Virus record (IMG/VR): IMGVR_UViG_3300022591_000041
Location: 1 to 31,979 of that record
Direction: 5' to 3' (one strand)
DNA from: a virus
DNA length: 31,979 nucleotides
The notes beneath the pieces are model-generated. The model did no database searches, was not told where the DNA came from, and was given only the letters and a program-made list of their open reading frames with translations. The position numbers and the translations under genes were made by a program. Shown in pieces: positions 20,877 through 25,522 of this stretch (position 1 is its first letter; the number at the start of each line of letters is the position of its first letter).

Positions 20877-21998
20877 CTATGCTCGCCAGATGCTCGCATC
20901 CATCTCATGCGAGATAATTCGCTCGAATTGCTCGCGCGCTTCGCGCCTCTCTTCGTTGGCCGCCTGAGATGCATCAGGAGTCATCGTGATGTCGGCTTGA
21001 CTCGCGCTCGTCACTTGAGCATTGCGGATACGCCGCGTCGCTAATCGATTCGCCTCAGTGAATCGCATAATGCGCGATAGGGGCATCAACTCAACCTTCG
21101 CCGCATCCCAATCAACAACGGCCCCTCGCTTTGCAGGCGCAACAGTCGCATAAACGAATTGGTATTGCTCGCGGCTATATGTCCGGTTTGAATCAGGCCG
21201 AGTTTCATAAATCAGACTTATCAAGACGAACGCGCCATGACGGCCATCGATATAAACCTTGATTGGTAATTCGACTGATTCTTGCGCTCGCGATATCGGC
21301 AGTCGGTAGCCCGTCTTCACCCAGTTGAACCAAACCTTGCGGTATGGCTTACGGCCTCTCAACATCTGGTAGAACGGCGGCCGCTCGCGCGATGCGCATG
21401 ACGAATCATGCTCTTCAAAGTCATGGTCCATATCGCATTGACACTCAGGCGATTCTTCCGACAATCCTGAATAGATTGAGCGTTCGCCCATGAATAAATA
21501 AGTCGTGTCGTCATCTGCGAATCGCGATTGCTCTACGATGATTGCCGCCCATTTATTCAACTGAGACTTGCCCGTGTTGCGCGCAACCTTGCATTCAGAC
21601 TCGTTCATCCATCGGCATTCTGCACACCATGATTCGCTGTTCGCCATTGCTCGGCGCGCTGAGGCATAGTTTGCAAACTCTTTATAGAATGGGAAGAGTT
21701 CAAGCATCTGACTATCGGTGCTGAATGAATCGCGATGCGTTATGCATTCAAGCATCCATGACGCATTATCAATCCCAAACAACGTCCCAGCCTCTTTCAT
21801 CCATCCCTTGAAGAATTGATTGCGCTGAGGCGCTGGTTGCCAGAGCCTAATGATTGAGCCTGTTCGCGGATTCGTTCGAATGCCGACGACGTTGCCGCCA
21901 TGACTGCGGCGCGTCTTACAAATGCGACGATGCTCATAGACATTGGTAATCGCAAAGTCCTGCGCACAGAACTCGCATACTTTCCGTTCCTGCGGCAT
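20877..21998 (-). CDS. Hypothetical protein with N-terminal zinc finger
   Basis: This 373-residue protein is not one I recognise. Residues 8-27 hold C-x2-C-x11-H-x3-C (VCEFCAQDF...HRRIC), a zinc-finger pattern. Further Cys-rich segments follow: SWCAECRWMNESEC near residue 125 and ECQCDMDHDFEEHDSSC near residue 185. The C-terminal ~70 residues are charged and helical. It is the last gene of the amidoligase operon and shares one base with the previous stop (TAATG), so it is probably translationally coupled. A nucleic-acid or protein-binding role is possible. Confidence 0.75.
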   Translation of the reverse strand: MPQERKVCEFCAQDFAITNVYEHRRICKTRRSHGGNVVGIRTNPRTGSIIRLWQPAPQRNQFFKGWMKEAGTLFGIDNASWMLECITHRDSFSTDSQMLELFPFYKEFANYASARRAMANSESWCAECRWMNESECKVARNTGKSQLNKWAAIIVEQSRFADDDTTYLFMGERSIYSGLSEESPECQCDMDHDFEEHDSSCASRERPPFYQMLRGRKPYRKVWFNWVKTGYRLPISRAQESVELPIKVYIDGRHGAFVLISLIYETRPDSNRTYSREQYQFVYATVAPAKRGAVVDWDAAKVELMPLSRIMRFTEANRLATRRIRNAQVTSASQADITMTPDASQAANEERREAREQFERIISHEMDASIWRA

Positions 21999-22336
21999 TA
22001 GAGCATCTCCTGACTCGTTGCGCGCTCAATCAACCATTCAAAGAACTCGGGCGTGAGTTTCTTCTCGGCTGACTCAAGCGATGGGAATGGTGTCTCAAGA
22101 TTGTATGCGCCATTGAATGCGAATACATCTGCGCCATCAACATCAGTCGATAGCGTGAACCACTGAATGATGACATCATCGACAATATCAATGTTGTGAG
22201 TCGCATTGACTGTGATGGTGTAATCATCTGAATCGAATCGCTTGACGACCGTCATATGTTGCAGATTGTCAGAGTCATTCGGATACACCTCTTGAAACAC
22301 TTTCCAACCATCCCACTGCTTCATAAACTGCTTCAT
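21998..22336 (-). CDS. Hypothetical acidic protein, 112 aa
   Basis: The start is directed by GAAAGTAGGGAATC, 57 bases after the predicted cleavage point of the upstream hammerhead ribozyme. The protein is acidic and aromatic-rich (MKQFMKQWDGWKVFQEVYPN at the start, EFFEWLIERATS near the end) with a beta-rich centre (SDDYTITVNATHNIDIVDDV). I recognise no family. Confidence 0.72.
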   Translation of the reverse strand: MKQFMKQWDGWKVFQEVYPNDSDNLQHMTVVKRFDSDDYTITVNATHNIDIVDDVIIQWFTLSTDVDGADVFAFNGAYNLETPFPSLESAEKKLTPEFFEWLIERATSQEML

Positions 22337-22354
22337 GATTCCCTACTTTCATTG

Positions 22355-22414
22355 CGCCTATCTCATCAGTCGGCAAGCGGCGAACCTTGCCAAGACGCCT
22401 CTCGGCGTTTCGAT
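22355..22414 (-). ncRNA. Type II hammerhead ribozyme (copy A)
   Basis: On the minus strand the spacer reads, in order: AUC, then GAAA, stem III ACGCC/GGCGU closed by a GAGA tetraloop, C17 (cleavage site GUC, at 22394), stem I UUGGCAAG/CUUGCCGA (8 bp with one G-U pair) around an 8-base loop, CUGAUGA (22363-22369), then GAU. All invariant hammerhead core bases are present in type II order. Stem II is open-ended and has only 3 bp (GAU/AUC). Loop I contains CGCC, able to pair with GGCG at 22355-22358. Predicted cut lies between 22394 and 22393. Located between the stop at 22424-22426 and the next start at 22336. Confidence 0.85.
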
Positions 22415-22423
22415 TCTTGATGC

Positions 22424-22723
22424 TTAACTCTTGAACGACATCGCCTGCGCTGATGCCCATGCAACGACAACTGCATCCTCATCATTGACGTATGGGATTG
22501 ACTCAATCTCAAGGCGGCGAACGCGCATCGTGCTGACGAGATTGCTGAGCATGTTCTCTTGCATACGCAAGACTTTCTCAGCCAAATCGACAATCTGACT
22601 TTCACTGCTTCGTAATTGAGAGCAGAGCAAACCCTGCTCTTCGATACAGGCGCTGATACCGCGATACTCGCTTACGAGAGTTCGCAATTCATCGCGCCCC
22701 ACTTCATTGATTACTTCTGGCAT
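22424..22723 (-). CDS. Hypothetical coiled-coil protein, 99 aa
   Basis: The gene lies between the two hammerhead ribozymes. Its start at 22723 follows AATGAAAGTAGGGAAGT, 56 bases after the predicted cut in copy B. The product is mostly helical: EVGRDELRTLVSEYRGISAC, then SSESQIVDLAEKVLRMQENM, which fits a coiled coil. The C-terminus has a short strand region (ESIPYVNDEDAVVVAWASAQ). No family recognised. It belongs to the amidoligase operon. Confidence 0.7.
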   Translation of the reverse strand: MPEVINEVGRDELRTLVSEYRGISACIEEQGLLCSQLRSSESQIVDLAEKVLRMQENMLSNLVSTMRVRRLEIESIPYVNDEDAVVVAWASAQAMSFKS

Positions 22724-22741
22724 ACTTCCCTACTTTCATTG

Positions 22742-22800
22742 GGCCTATCTCATCAGTTGCAGGCGGCCATTCACTGCAAGACGCCTCACGGCGTTTCGAT
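22742..22800 (-). ncRNA. Type II hammerhead ribozyme (copy B)
   Basis: The minus strand reads AUC, GAAA, stem III ACGCC/GGCGU with a GUGA tetraloop, C17 (GUC cleavage site, at 22780), stem I UUGCAG/CUGCAA (6 perfect bp) around an 11-base loop, CUGAUGA (22750-22756), GAU. Stem I differs in sequence from copy A yet still pairs, and loop I holds GGCC that can pair with GGCC at 22742-22745. Predicted cut lies between 22780 and 22779. The 5' end of the ribozyme overlaps the last base of the glutamine amidotransferase stop codon. Stem II has 3 bp. Confidence 0.87.
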
Positions 22801-23642
22801 TATCCGCGCCAGCCTTGCCAATCACCCTCGCGCTCAGAATTGAGATACTCCGCCCAGATTGCATCATCATCATCAATATCGGCAAAGAGCGAAGGCGCGC
22901 TATATGAAGGCAACGCATAGCCCGCGCCGCTAGCCGCAAACTCGCTCCAATCATTGATTGCGCCTTGCTCGACTTTGAGATACGTCCCCTCTCCGACTTC
23001 AGCGCGCCACGTCAAGGCAAGATTCGACTTTGCCGCCGCGCGATTCAACATATTCATCTGAGAGCAGAACACGAACTGCCCAGTCTTTGATTGAGCAATT
23101 GCCAGAGGCGATGACTTGACTCGCGCTAAGCGCAACGTCTCAGGCGACTCCAAATCAATCCAAGCAAGCGCCGCGCCGCCAATCAAGCGAGGCAGAGCCT
23201 CACAGATTGAATCAGCATCAGAGCCAACCGACTCGATAAGAGCGAAGGCCGCCTCTGAATCAACCTGCCCGATGCGCTTGACGCCGACTTCATTGAAGAG
23301 CGCATCATCATTTGAGATATGCCCATTATGAACGCCGATGATACGAGGCCGAATGATGGGATGATTATTCGCATCAATCGAAGGAGAGCCTTGCGTTGCA
23401 TAGCGAGTATGCAAGATGCAGATGCGAACATCAGGCGACATCAGCGACTTCAACTCTTTCACGAATCCCCATGCTGAGCCTGCGCGCTTGTAATAATACA
23501 CCTCGCCATCTGACGGGTCGACCCACGATGCGCCAGTAGCATCCTTGCCGCGCGCGACAATCTCCAACAACAACTCTGATGCCAAGACTCGCGCATCAAT
23601 CTTTGCTCCGCCTGTTAAGCAGAATCCTGCGATACCACACAT
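22800..23642 (-). CDS. Class II glutamine amidotransferase
   Basis: The 280-residue enzyme releases ammonia from glutamine. It opens with MCGIAGF, so Cys2 becomes the N-terminal nucleophile after Met removal. Other landmarks are RGKDATG (31-37), HTRYATQG (78-85), NNHP (92-95), GVHNGHISN (103-111) and VDSEAAFALI. It lacks any synthetase domain, so ammonia is presumably passed to a partner, most likely the amidoligase encoded just upstream in the same operon. The start follows AAGGAAGGAATC. The last ~40 residues are acidic (DIDDDDAIWAEYLN). Pairing of these two families in phage and bacterial gene clusters has been described, so the link is a reasoned inference. Confidence 0.88.
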   Translation of the reverse strand: MCGIAGFCLTGGAKIDARVLASELLLEIVARGKDATGASWVDPSDGEVYYYKRAGSAWGFVKELKSLMSPDVRICILHTRYATQGSPSIDANNHPIIRPRIIGVHNGHISNDDALFNEVGVKRIGQVDSEAAFALIESVGSDADSICEALPRLIGGAALAWIDLESPETLRLARVKSSPLAIAQSKTGQFVFCSQMNMLNRAAAKSNLALTWRAEVGEGTYLKVEQGAINDWSEFAASGAGYALPSYSAPSLFADIDDDDAIWAEYLNSEREGDWQGWRG

Positions 23643-23671
23643 ATTGATTCCTTCCTTACTTTCTCGATGAC

Positions 23672-24772
23672 CTAGTTCAATTCCAAAACGCGCTCTGAGA
23701 AAAAGTCAACCAACTCAGATGGTGCGCCTGACAATTCGACAATCTTGGCAAGCGTATTCTCAACCTTGCGCTGACGGTAGCCAGCGGCTGAGCCATCGAA
23801 TGCGCCAGCGCGGCCTTCAATCGTGAATCCCTCTGAATTGCGCGCAATGGTAGGCACGAACTGCAACTTGTCTTCCTTTGCCAACTTCATGCAAGCCATG
23901 AGCAACAAGCCCCACTTCTGCATCTTCTCGCGGTTGAGCGTTCCTTGGTGCTGACGGAACTCAAGCGTCGTGTGGCGATTCATTGACTGCGTGTTGATGG
24001 TGCGGTAGCGCCAGTTGTCGTTATTAGGAACGACGCGACGCTCAAGCATCGGCATCTCTTCATCCAATTGGCGCTGAGTCCAACCCGACAAGAGCGAATT
24101 GATGCGACGGCTAGGCGAAGTCAGCGCGTCAAAGAATCCCTGATTGGCGACATAGAACTTAACCATGCGAACGAGCGCGGCGGCGGGCATGTCATCAGTG
24201 CCGAGATGAATGTGAGTGCCGCATGAGAGGCGAATCTGAGCGCCTGCATCCTTGAGCGCCTTCATCGCAATCTCAACTTCATCCCAACCCTCATCGCCAT
24301 ACAAGACTGGCGAGACTGCTTCCATGCCACATGATGCATCGCGAACGACCTTCCACCAAGTCGTGCGACGGTGCGTGTATCCTTCATCGCGAACTTGCAA
24401 GCCTGCATTCTCAAGCGCCGCCAACATCGCGTCGGCTGAAAGATTCTCAGTCTCAAGTTCGACGCCGAATGAGCGACGAGTCCAATCATCAAGCGTCGTC
24501 AGATTCTCAACGAACGCGCTAGACGATGCGCCAGTCGCGCCATTGCGGATTGATGCCATCGATGATGCGAACGCCCATATCGCTGAGTAATCGTTGGCGG
24601 CAACTCCGAGTGAGCGCGCGCGCGACAGAGCCGCACGAGCCGACTGGCCATGCGCCCAACCGCATACGCGCGCCGCTTGGTCGTAGGTGTAACCATTCTG
24701 AATCATCCACAAGCCGTGTGCCATGCGGCGCTCTGATTGATTACTGATTCGTGTTCCGTTCAGGTAAGGCAT
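23672..24772 (-). CDS. Amidoligase (glutamine synthetase-like COOH-NH2 ligase)
   Basis: Taken from ATG 24772 (after GAAAGTGGGAATCAA) the product has 366 residues; longer in-frame starts lie in the leader and -10 region. Residues ~10-60 look like a helix-turn-helix (GYTYDQAARVCGWAHGQSAR). The catalytic part follows: FGVELETE (Glu105/Glu107), GMEAVSPVL (Glu151), CGTHIHLG (His187/His189) and TTLEFRQHQGTL (Glu271/Arg273), which are the signature motifs of the putative amidoligase family. These enzymes are predicted to form amide or peptide bonds on unusual substrates using ATP. The promoter at 24841-24870 lies just upstream. An N-terminal HTH fused to an amidoligase is unusual. Confidence 0.87.
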   Translation of the reverse strand: MPYLNGTRISNQSERRMAHGLWMIQNGYTYDQAARVCGWAHGQSARAALSRARSLGVAANDYSAIWAFASSMASIRNGATGASSSAFVENLTTLDDWTRRSFGVELETENLSADAMLAALENAGLQVRDEGYTHRRTTWWKVVRDASCGMEAVSPVLYGDEGWDEVEIAMKALKDAGAQIRLSCGTHIHLGTDDMPAAALVRMVKFYVANQGFFDALTSPSRRINSLLSGWTQRQLDEEMPMLERRVVPNNDNWRYRTINTQSMNRHTTLEFRQHQGTLNREKMQKWGLLLMACMKLAKEDKLQFVPTIARNSEGFTIEGRAGAFDGSAAGYRQRKVENTLAKIVELSGAPSELVDFFSERVLELN

Positions 24773-24800
24773 TTGATTCCCACTTTCATTCATCGGCGCT

Positions 24801-24832
24801 AGCGACTTGCTCGCGCCTTGAGCGACTTGCTC
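24801..24832. repeat. Tandem 12-bp repeat in the amidoligase leader
   Basis: AGCGACTTGCTC occurs at 24801-24812 and 24821-24832, a spacing of 20 bases. Both copies lie between the -10 box and the start codon, so they are in the transcribed leader or overlap a repressor site. Role unknown. Confidence 0.75.
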
Positions 24833-24840
24833 ATGCATCA

Positions 24841-24870
24841 ATGATAGGCACGATTCGAGACAAATTGCAA
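24841..24870 (-). promoter_or_regulatory. Minus-strand promoter of the amidoligase operon
   Basis: On the minus strand TTGCAA (24870-24865) and TATCAT (24846-24841) are separated by 18 bases. A near-identical element lies at 27985-28014, including the upstream bases GTTTCAGATTGTTGCAA and the CGTGCCTA before the -10 box, which supports a real phage promoter. Confidence 0.7.
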
Positions 24871-24994: not shown

Positions 24995-25522
24995 ATGATT
25001 GAAGTCGGCGACATTATCTTTGCGCACACCAATGGCATTATCGGCAAGGCGATTCGCTTTGCAGAGTGGTGGCATCATCCAACGCGCATGGGCAGTCAAT
25101 GGAATCATGTTGCAATAGTCACTCGCATTGACGACCACCGCATCTTCATAACTCAAGCGCAACCGCATGGCGTAACAAACGATATGGCGCTTGATGAACT
25201 AATTGATGTCAATGACAAGATGCTTGTGTATCGGCCGCCTGCGCATTTGAATCATGATGCGATGCTTGAGTTCGCATTTGGCGAAGTCGGCAGTCATTAT
25301 GGCTTCCTTTCAATCGCATCAGTTGCGACTGACATCATTACGCCGACTTGGGCGCCGGCTATTCGGACTCCTGATTCATGGATATGTTCGGCGTTGGCGG
25401 CTGAGTATCTGCGCGTTGGCGGCTGGGTCCATCGCTGGCCTGATATTTACGGCGTGATGCCCGCGCAACTTGAGTTGGCGCTACATGCTGACCTTGACTT
25501 TGAGATTGTGGCTCAGTTGTAA
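24995..25522 (+). CDS. YiiX/NlpC-P60-like papain-fold hydrolase
   Basis: The 175-residue protein is a lone plus-strand gene inside the minus block. It begins VGDIIFAHTNGIIGKAI, continues QWNHVAIVTRI with His38, and later has DSWICSALAAEYL with Cys131. His before Cys in the chain is the order of permuted papain-like enzymes (YaeF/YiiX type) and fits an amidase or peptidase acting on lipid or peptide amides. No signal peptide is seen. Its last 164 bases overlap the end of the antisense Ntn hydrolase gene. Role unknown: a second wall enzyme or a host-protein modifier are options. Confidence 0.78.
   Translation: MIEVGDIIFAHTNGIIGKAIRFAEWWHHPTRMGSQWNHVAIVTRIDDHRIFITQAQPHGVTNDMALDELIDVNDKMLVYRPPAHLNHDAMLEFAFGEVGSHYGFLSIASVATDIITPTWAPAIRTPDSWICSALAAEYLRVGGWVHRWPDIYGVMPAQLELALHADLDFEIVAQL

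Follow-up and report, generated by a model that had tools for sequence, protein, structure and literature searches.

This locus raises two questions, namely which tertiary contact is made by hammerhead ribozymes that possess no loop II and what such ribozymes may do in the gaps between phage genes. The window, i.e. the whole stretch of DNA that was analyzed, is a viral record of 31,979 bases that carries phage portal and tape-measure genes. Its minus strand, to which all coordinates given below refer, contains two complete type II hammerhead ribozymes, both of which sit in gaps between neighboring phage genes.

Structure and classification of the two ribozymes

Copy A (22355-22414, delimited from the sequence and our own model R1) and copy B (22742-22800, delimited from Rfam RF02276 and the sequence) each begin with the 5' strand of stem II and end with the pseudoknot tail. 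From 5' to 3', a stem II strand is followed by GAAA, a closed stem III, GUC, a closed stem I, CUGAUGA and the other stem II strand, an order that assigns both copies to type II. Stem II is formed by AUC (copy A: 22412-22414, copy B: 22798-22800) and GAU (22360-22362 and 22747-22749, respectively). The stem III hairpins (22395-22408 and 22781-22794) are capped by the GNRA loops GAGA in copy A and GUGA in copy B, and stem I together with loop I occupies positions 22370-22393 in copy A (8 bp) and 22757-22779 in copy B (6 bp). The CUGAUGA core is located at 22363-22369 and 22750-22756. On the basis of the hammerhead consensus, self-cleavage after GUC is predicted between 22394 and 22393 in copy A and between 22780 and 22779 in copy B.

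Rfam lists nothing in the window at its gathering threshold. Once the threshold is relaxed, copy B is recognized as Hammerhead_II (RF02276) with 34.2 bits (E 3.3e-5) and copy A still yields no match, so that neither copy reaches the RF02276 gathering score of 37 bits. Both are nevertheless filed here as type II hammerheads because all structural features are present and the gathering score is a score threshold, not a biological feature. The type II core (CUGANGA, GAAA, the A15.1-U16.1 pair and a UH cleavage triplet), loop-closed stems I and III, an open stem II and the pseudoknot pairing of loop I with the bases after stem II that is characteristic of RF02276 occur in both copies. Our own model built from 26 sequences recovered copies A and B in the window, the next match having an E value of 0.7, and revealed no third hammerhead copy there. 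Copy A attains 59.8 bits under own model R1; own-model scores are circular for both copies because both are part of the training set.

The two ribozymes are thus new members of RF02276 that lie under its cut-off. With the type II hammerheads of RF02276 and Perreault et al. (2011) they share stems I and III that are closed by loops, a 2-3 bp stem II that is open, the CUGAUGA...GAAA core, the GUC cleavage site, a pseudoknot in which loop I forms 4 bp or more with the bases that immediately follow stem II, and clustering around individual phage genes. Apart from the score, they deviate in having GAU/AUC as stem II instead of the commoner GAC/GUC, and nothing essential differs. It is very probable that copies A and B are type II hammerheads of the RF02276 kind in which loop I is paired with the four bases 3' of stem II.

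Pairing between loop I and the bases after stem II

In copy A, loop I reads GUUCGCCG (22385-22378) and includes CGCC (22382-22379), which is complementary to GGCG (22358-22355), separated by one A from the 3-bp stem II. Loop I of copy B reads UGAAUGGCCGC (22773-22763) and includes GGCC (22768-22765), the partner of which is GGCC (22745-22742) after the likewise 3-bp stem II. Each pseudoknot consists of exactly 4 Watson-Crick base pairs and is not extendable. One pair of the helix differs in a compensatory manner, being C-G in copy A and G-C in copy B. An earlier note on this DNA had given these letters, together with the positions of the bases after stem II, and had pointed out that a C-to-G change in loop I is offset by a G-to-C change at the same pair position of the partner; both statements are correct when the minus strand is read. 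When loop and tail are shuffled, a run of 4 or more pairs arises in 25% (copy A) and 17% (copy B) of the cases, and the window alone is therefore weak proof of the pairing.

Relatives were collected with a pattern for the type II core in which loop I and the tail are free and the tail-side strand of stem II is constrained at its first two bases only. Parsing of the scan of IMG/VR (at least 119 stretches) and reference genomes (9 stretches) gave at least 208 hammerheads, at least 150 of them non-redundant and nearly all from viral contigs. Among the 150 non-redundant matches listed, 83% can form four or more Watson-Crick pairs when loop I is matched with the eight bases that follow stem II, as compared with 16% when tails are swapped between ribozymes (at most 25% in 200 trials) and 17% for shuffled loops. 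In a single fixed register, with the loop segment 8 nt ahead of CUGAUGA and the tail at offset 4, all four pairs are formed in 88 of 146 cases, while swaps lead to an expectation of 5. This is the register of copy B; copy A belongs to the adjacent one, whose loop segment lies 9 nt ahead of the core (20 of 144, 3 expected). A second pattern, less strict in stem III, added 132 further non-redundant cases among the matches listed, 81% of which contain the pseudoknot (control: 18%). Both samples represent matches listed and not a census. Taken over both, about 280 non-redundant hammerheads, nearly all of them from viral contigs, now document the contact. The commonest pseudoknot length in the relatives is 5 bp, placing the 4 bp of the window copies at the short end.

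An alignment of 26 sequences, picked only by stem and loop length plus both window copies, has 98.1% of its pseudoknot cells paired. Changes on both sides occur at all four pseudoknot pairs, with 36 cells in total, although the pair of columns 37 and 58 is a nearly invariant C-G and adds little. When the whole structure is slid by 1-3 columns, overall pairing drops from 98.9% to 26-40%. The earlier note had proposed the pseudoknot as a tertiary contact and had named loss of the pairing in homologues as the finding that would speak against it. In the homologues the pairing is kept, with many compensatory changes, which supports the proposal.

The idea is right but not new. The pseudoknot was described for type II hammerheads in 2011, so that its finding in the window is a correct rediscovery (Perreault et al., 2011; PMC3088659). 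The same work demonstrated rescue by compensatory mutants in cleavage kinetics for a metagenome-derived hammerhead, and found that the contact keeps stems I and II parallel and thereby allows high cleavage rates at low magnesium. Shortening of the pseudoknot from 6 to 4 bp in a published construct cost about 20-fold in rate (PMC3088659). The earlier note suggested that the pseudoknot could stabilize the short stem II; its role goes beyond mere stabilization of stem II (PMC3088659). Parallel docking of stems I and II is also the purpose of the contact in hammerheads with a non-Watson-Crick interaction between loops I and II (PMC3088659), but the window copies lack a loop II and employ a Watson-Crick helix with the 3' tail. 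A helix joining stems I and II is likewise present in non-circularly permuted hammerheads of type SGC (PMC10085705), from which the window copies differ in core order, theirs being the ordinary type II (GSC) order.

Folding energies and alternative readings of the pairing

For neither intact RNA is the minimum-energy nested fold the hammerhead fold. Copy A reaches -22.2 kcal/mol in the minimum-energy fold and -18.4 kcal/mol as a hammerhead, a gap of 3.8 kcal/mol; for copy B the values are -20.7 and -12.2 kcal/mol, a gap of 8.5 kcal/mol. The 4-bp pseudoknot helix is worth -5.0 kcal/mol in copy A and -5.9 kcal/mol in copy B, which closes the gap for copy A but not for copy B. Given the energy that remains uncovered, misfolding of copy B is a real possibility unless co-transcriptional folding favors the ribozyme. 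Minimum-energy folding was not used as evidence for structure, since the pseudoknot lies outside what it can represent and the z-scores it gave are close to zero.

These energies could be taken to indicate that both ribozymes are decayed, inactive leftovers of an ancestral insertion, and the score of copy B under the Rfam threshold and the missing match for copy A point in the same direction. Yet both copies have retained every core base, all three stems and the compensated pair of the pseudoknot even though stem I and loop I have diverged, and we consider decay highly improbable. Slightly less probable still is that the complementarity of loop I and tail has arisen by chance in a G+C-rich stretch and that the ribozymes work without the pairing. 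Such a reading can draw on the 17-25% of shuffled window copies that reach a run of this length, but it is at odds with the recurrence of the same register and with covariation across two separate samples of relatives, which contradict chance complementarity for the family. A genuine loop I/tail pseudoknot in both copies is thus the reading we adhere to.

Placement between stop codon and ribosome-binding site

Copy B follows a gene for a class II glutamine amidotransferase (22800-23642), the stop codon of which (TAA, 22802-22800) shares its last A with the first base of stem II. Between the two ribozymes lies a gene for a protein of 99 aa (22424-22723) and downstream of copy A one for a protein of 112 aa (21998-22336), both without family match. 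The TAA upstream of copy A is located 9 nt before the start of the ribozyme. After both copies the same leader, CAAUGAAAGUAGGGA (22340-22354 and 22727-22741), precedes the start codon and contains a Shine-Dalgarno-like AGGGA (22344-22340 and 22731-22727). The genes downstream of the two copies look unrelated despite the common leader. Together, common leader and unrelated genes suggest that ribozyme and ribosome-binding site were duplicated together as a single unit.

A corresponding arrangement is found in the relatives, for which gene calls were made by simple open-frame rules and not taken from annotation. Among the matches listed in the first sample, a start codon with a Shine-Dalgarno-like sequence is present within 100 nt past the pseudoknot tail in 161 of 192 unique cases (84%), at a median distance of 20 nt. 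The same applies to 22% of random positions of the same contigs and to 11 of 192 cases on the opposite strand. On the upstream side, 81% of 176 cases have an open frame of 70 codons or more that terminates fewer than 20 nt ahead of the ribozyme core strand (random: 9%). The random control ignores that any non-coding element tends to lie between genes. The second sample agrees (downstream start in 111 of 125 cases, upstream frame in 104 of 129). When both samples are pooled, 193 of the 248 non-redundant cases with enough flank have both neighbors, and the distance from stop to start has a median of 83 nt (quartiles 79 and 92). The ribozyme thus fills the gap between genes on the same strand, the next ribosome-binding site starting a few nucleotides after the pseudoknot. 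In 122 of the 248 non-redundant cases the stop codon either shares bases with the stem II strand or directly adjoins it, and 74 of these 122 share one exact spacing between stop and stem II, with TAG as the stop codon in 68. It is this fixed spacing at the stop codon that exceeds mere intergenic location. Perreault et al. (2011) noted that several hammerheads flank single genes in prophages, suggested transcript processing and called hammerhead function in phages unclear (PMC3088659). Our literature search on the placement was limited to open papers, and an earlier description may exist elsewhere.

Possible role at gene junctions

The pseudoknot would stand in for the missing loop II contact and dock stems I and II side by side, which may allow fast self-cleavage at physiological magnesium, as demonstrated for other type II hammerheads. 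Such cleavage would fall after GUC, where stem III meets stem I, and would sever a polycistronic phage transcript at both gene junctions. The upstream mRNA product would then end in the stem III hairpin; UUCG or GNRA loops cap this stem in 141 of 282 relatives. The downstream mRNA would carry a 5'-OH at its start, followed by stem I and the pseudoknot, still formed, beside the ribosome-binding site. As a tentative proposal to which we attach limited confidence, type II hammerheads of phages may be position-locked junction elements with the stop codon in stem II and the tail before the ribosome-binding site, such that upstream termination may control cleavage while the downstream mRNA keeps a protective 5'-OH pseudoknot. 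From the nearly constant place of the ribozyme between stop codon and ribosome-binding site, testable statements on mRNA processing and translation can be derived.

An addition to this explanation rather than an alternative would be gating by translation. A terminating ribosome would occupy the 5' strands of both stem II and stem III and thereby prevent folding, and cleavage would report translation of the upstream gene. The in-frame stop codons at stem II, including that of copy B, and their preferred spacing are consistent with such gating. However, tight packing in compact phage genomes predicts the same arrangement, and in copy A the stop codon lies upstream of stem II, so that we regard gating as conceivable but doubtful.

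Gene neighborhood

An exact search of viral contigs with the window's own 3' half gave no match, nor did blastn of the neighborhood against isolate phages, and no relatives of a 373-aa protein were found. The type II hammerhead pattern was absent from 80 loci with relatives of the neighboring glutamine amidotransferase gene, indicating that the ribozymes do not travel with this gene (at 40-48% identity). One other viral contig stretch, locus L103, contains an unusually dense cluster of at least nine distinct type II hammerheads. In the window, the class II glutamine amidotransferase gene adjoins an amidoligase (Amidoligase_2) gene (22800-24841, minus strand), and a C92 papain-like peptidase is encoded near this pair (24995-25522). 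Amidotransferase, amidoligase and C92 peptidase possibly constitute a peptide-modifying or cell-wall-modifying set.
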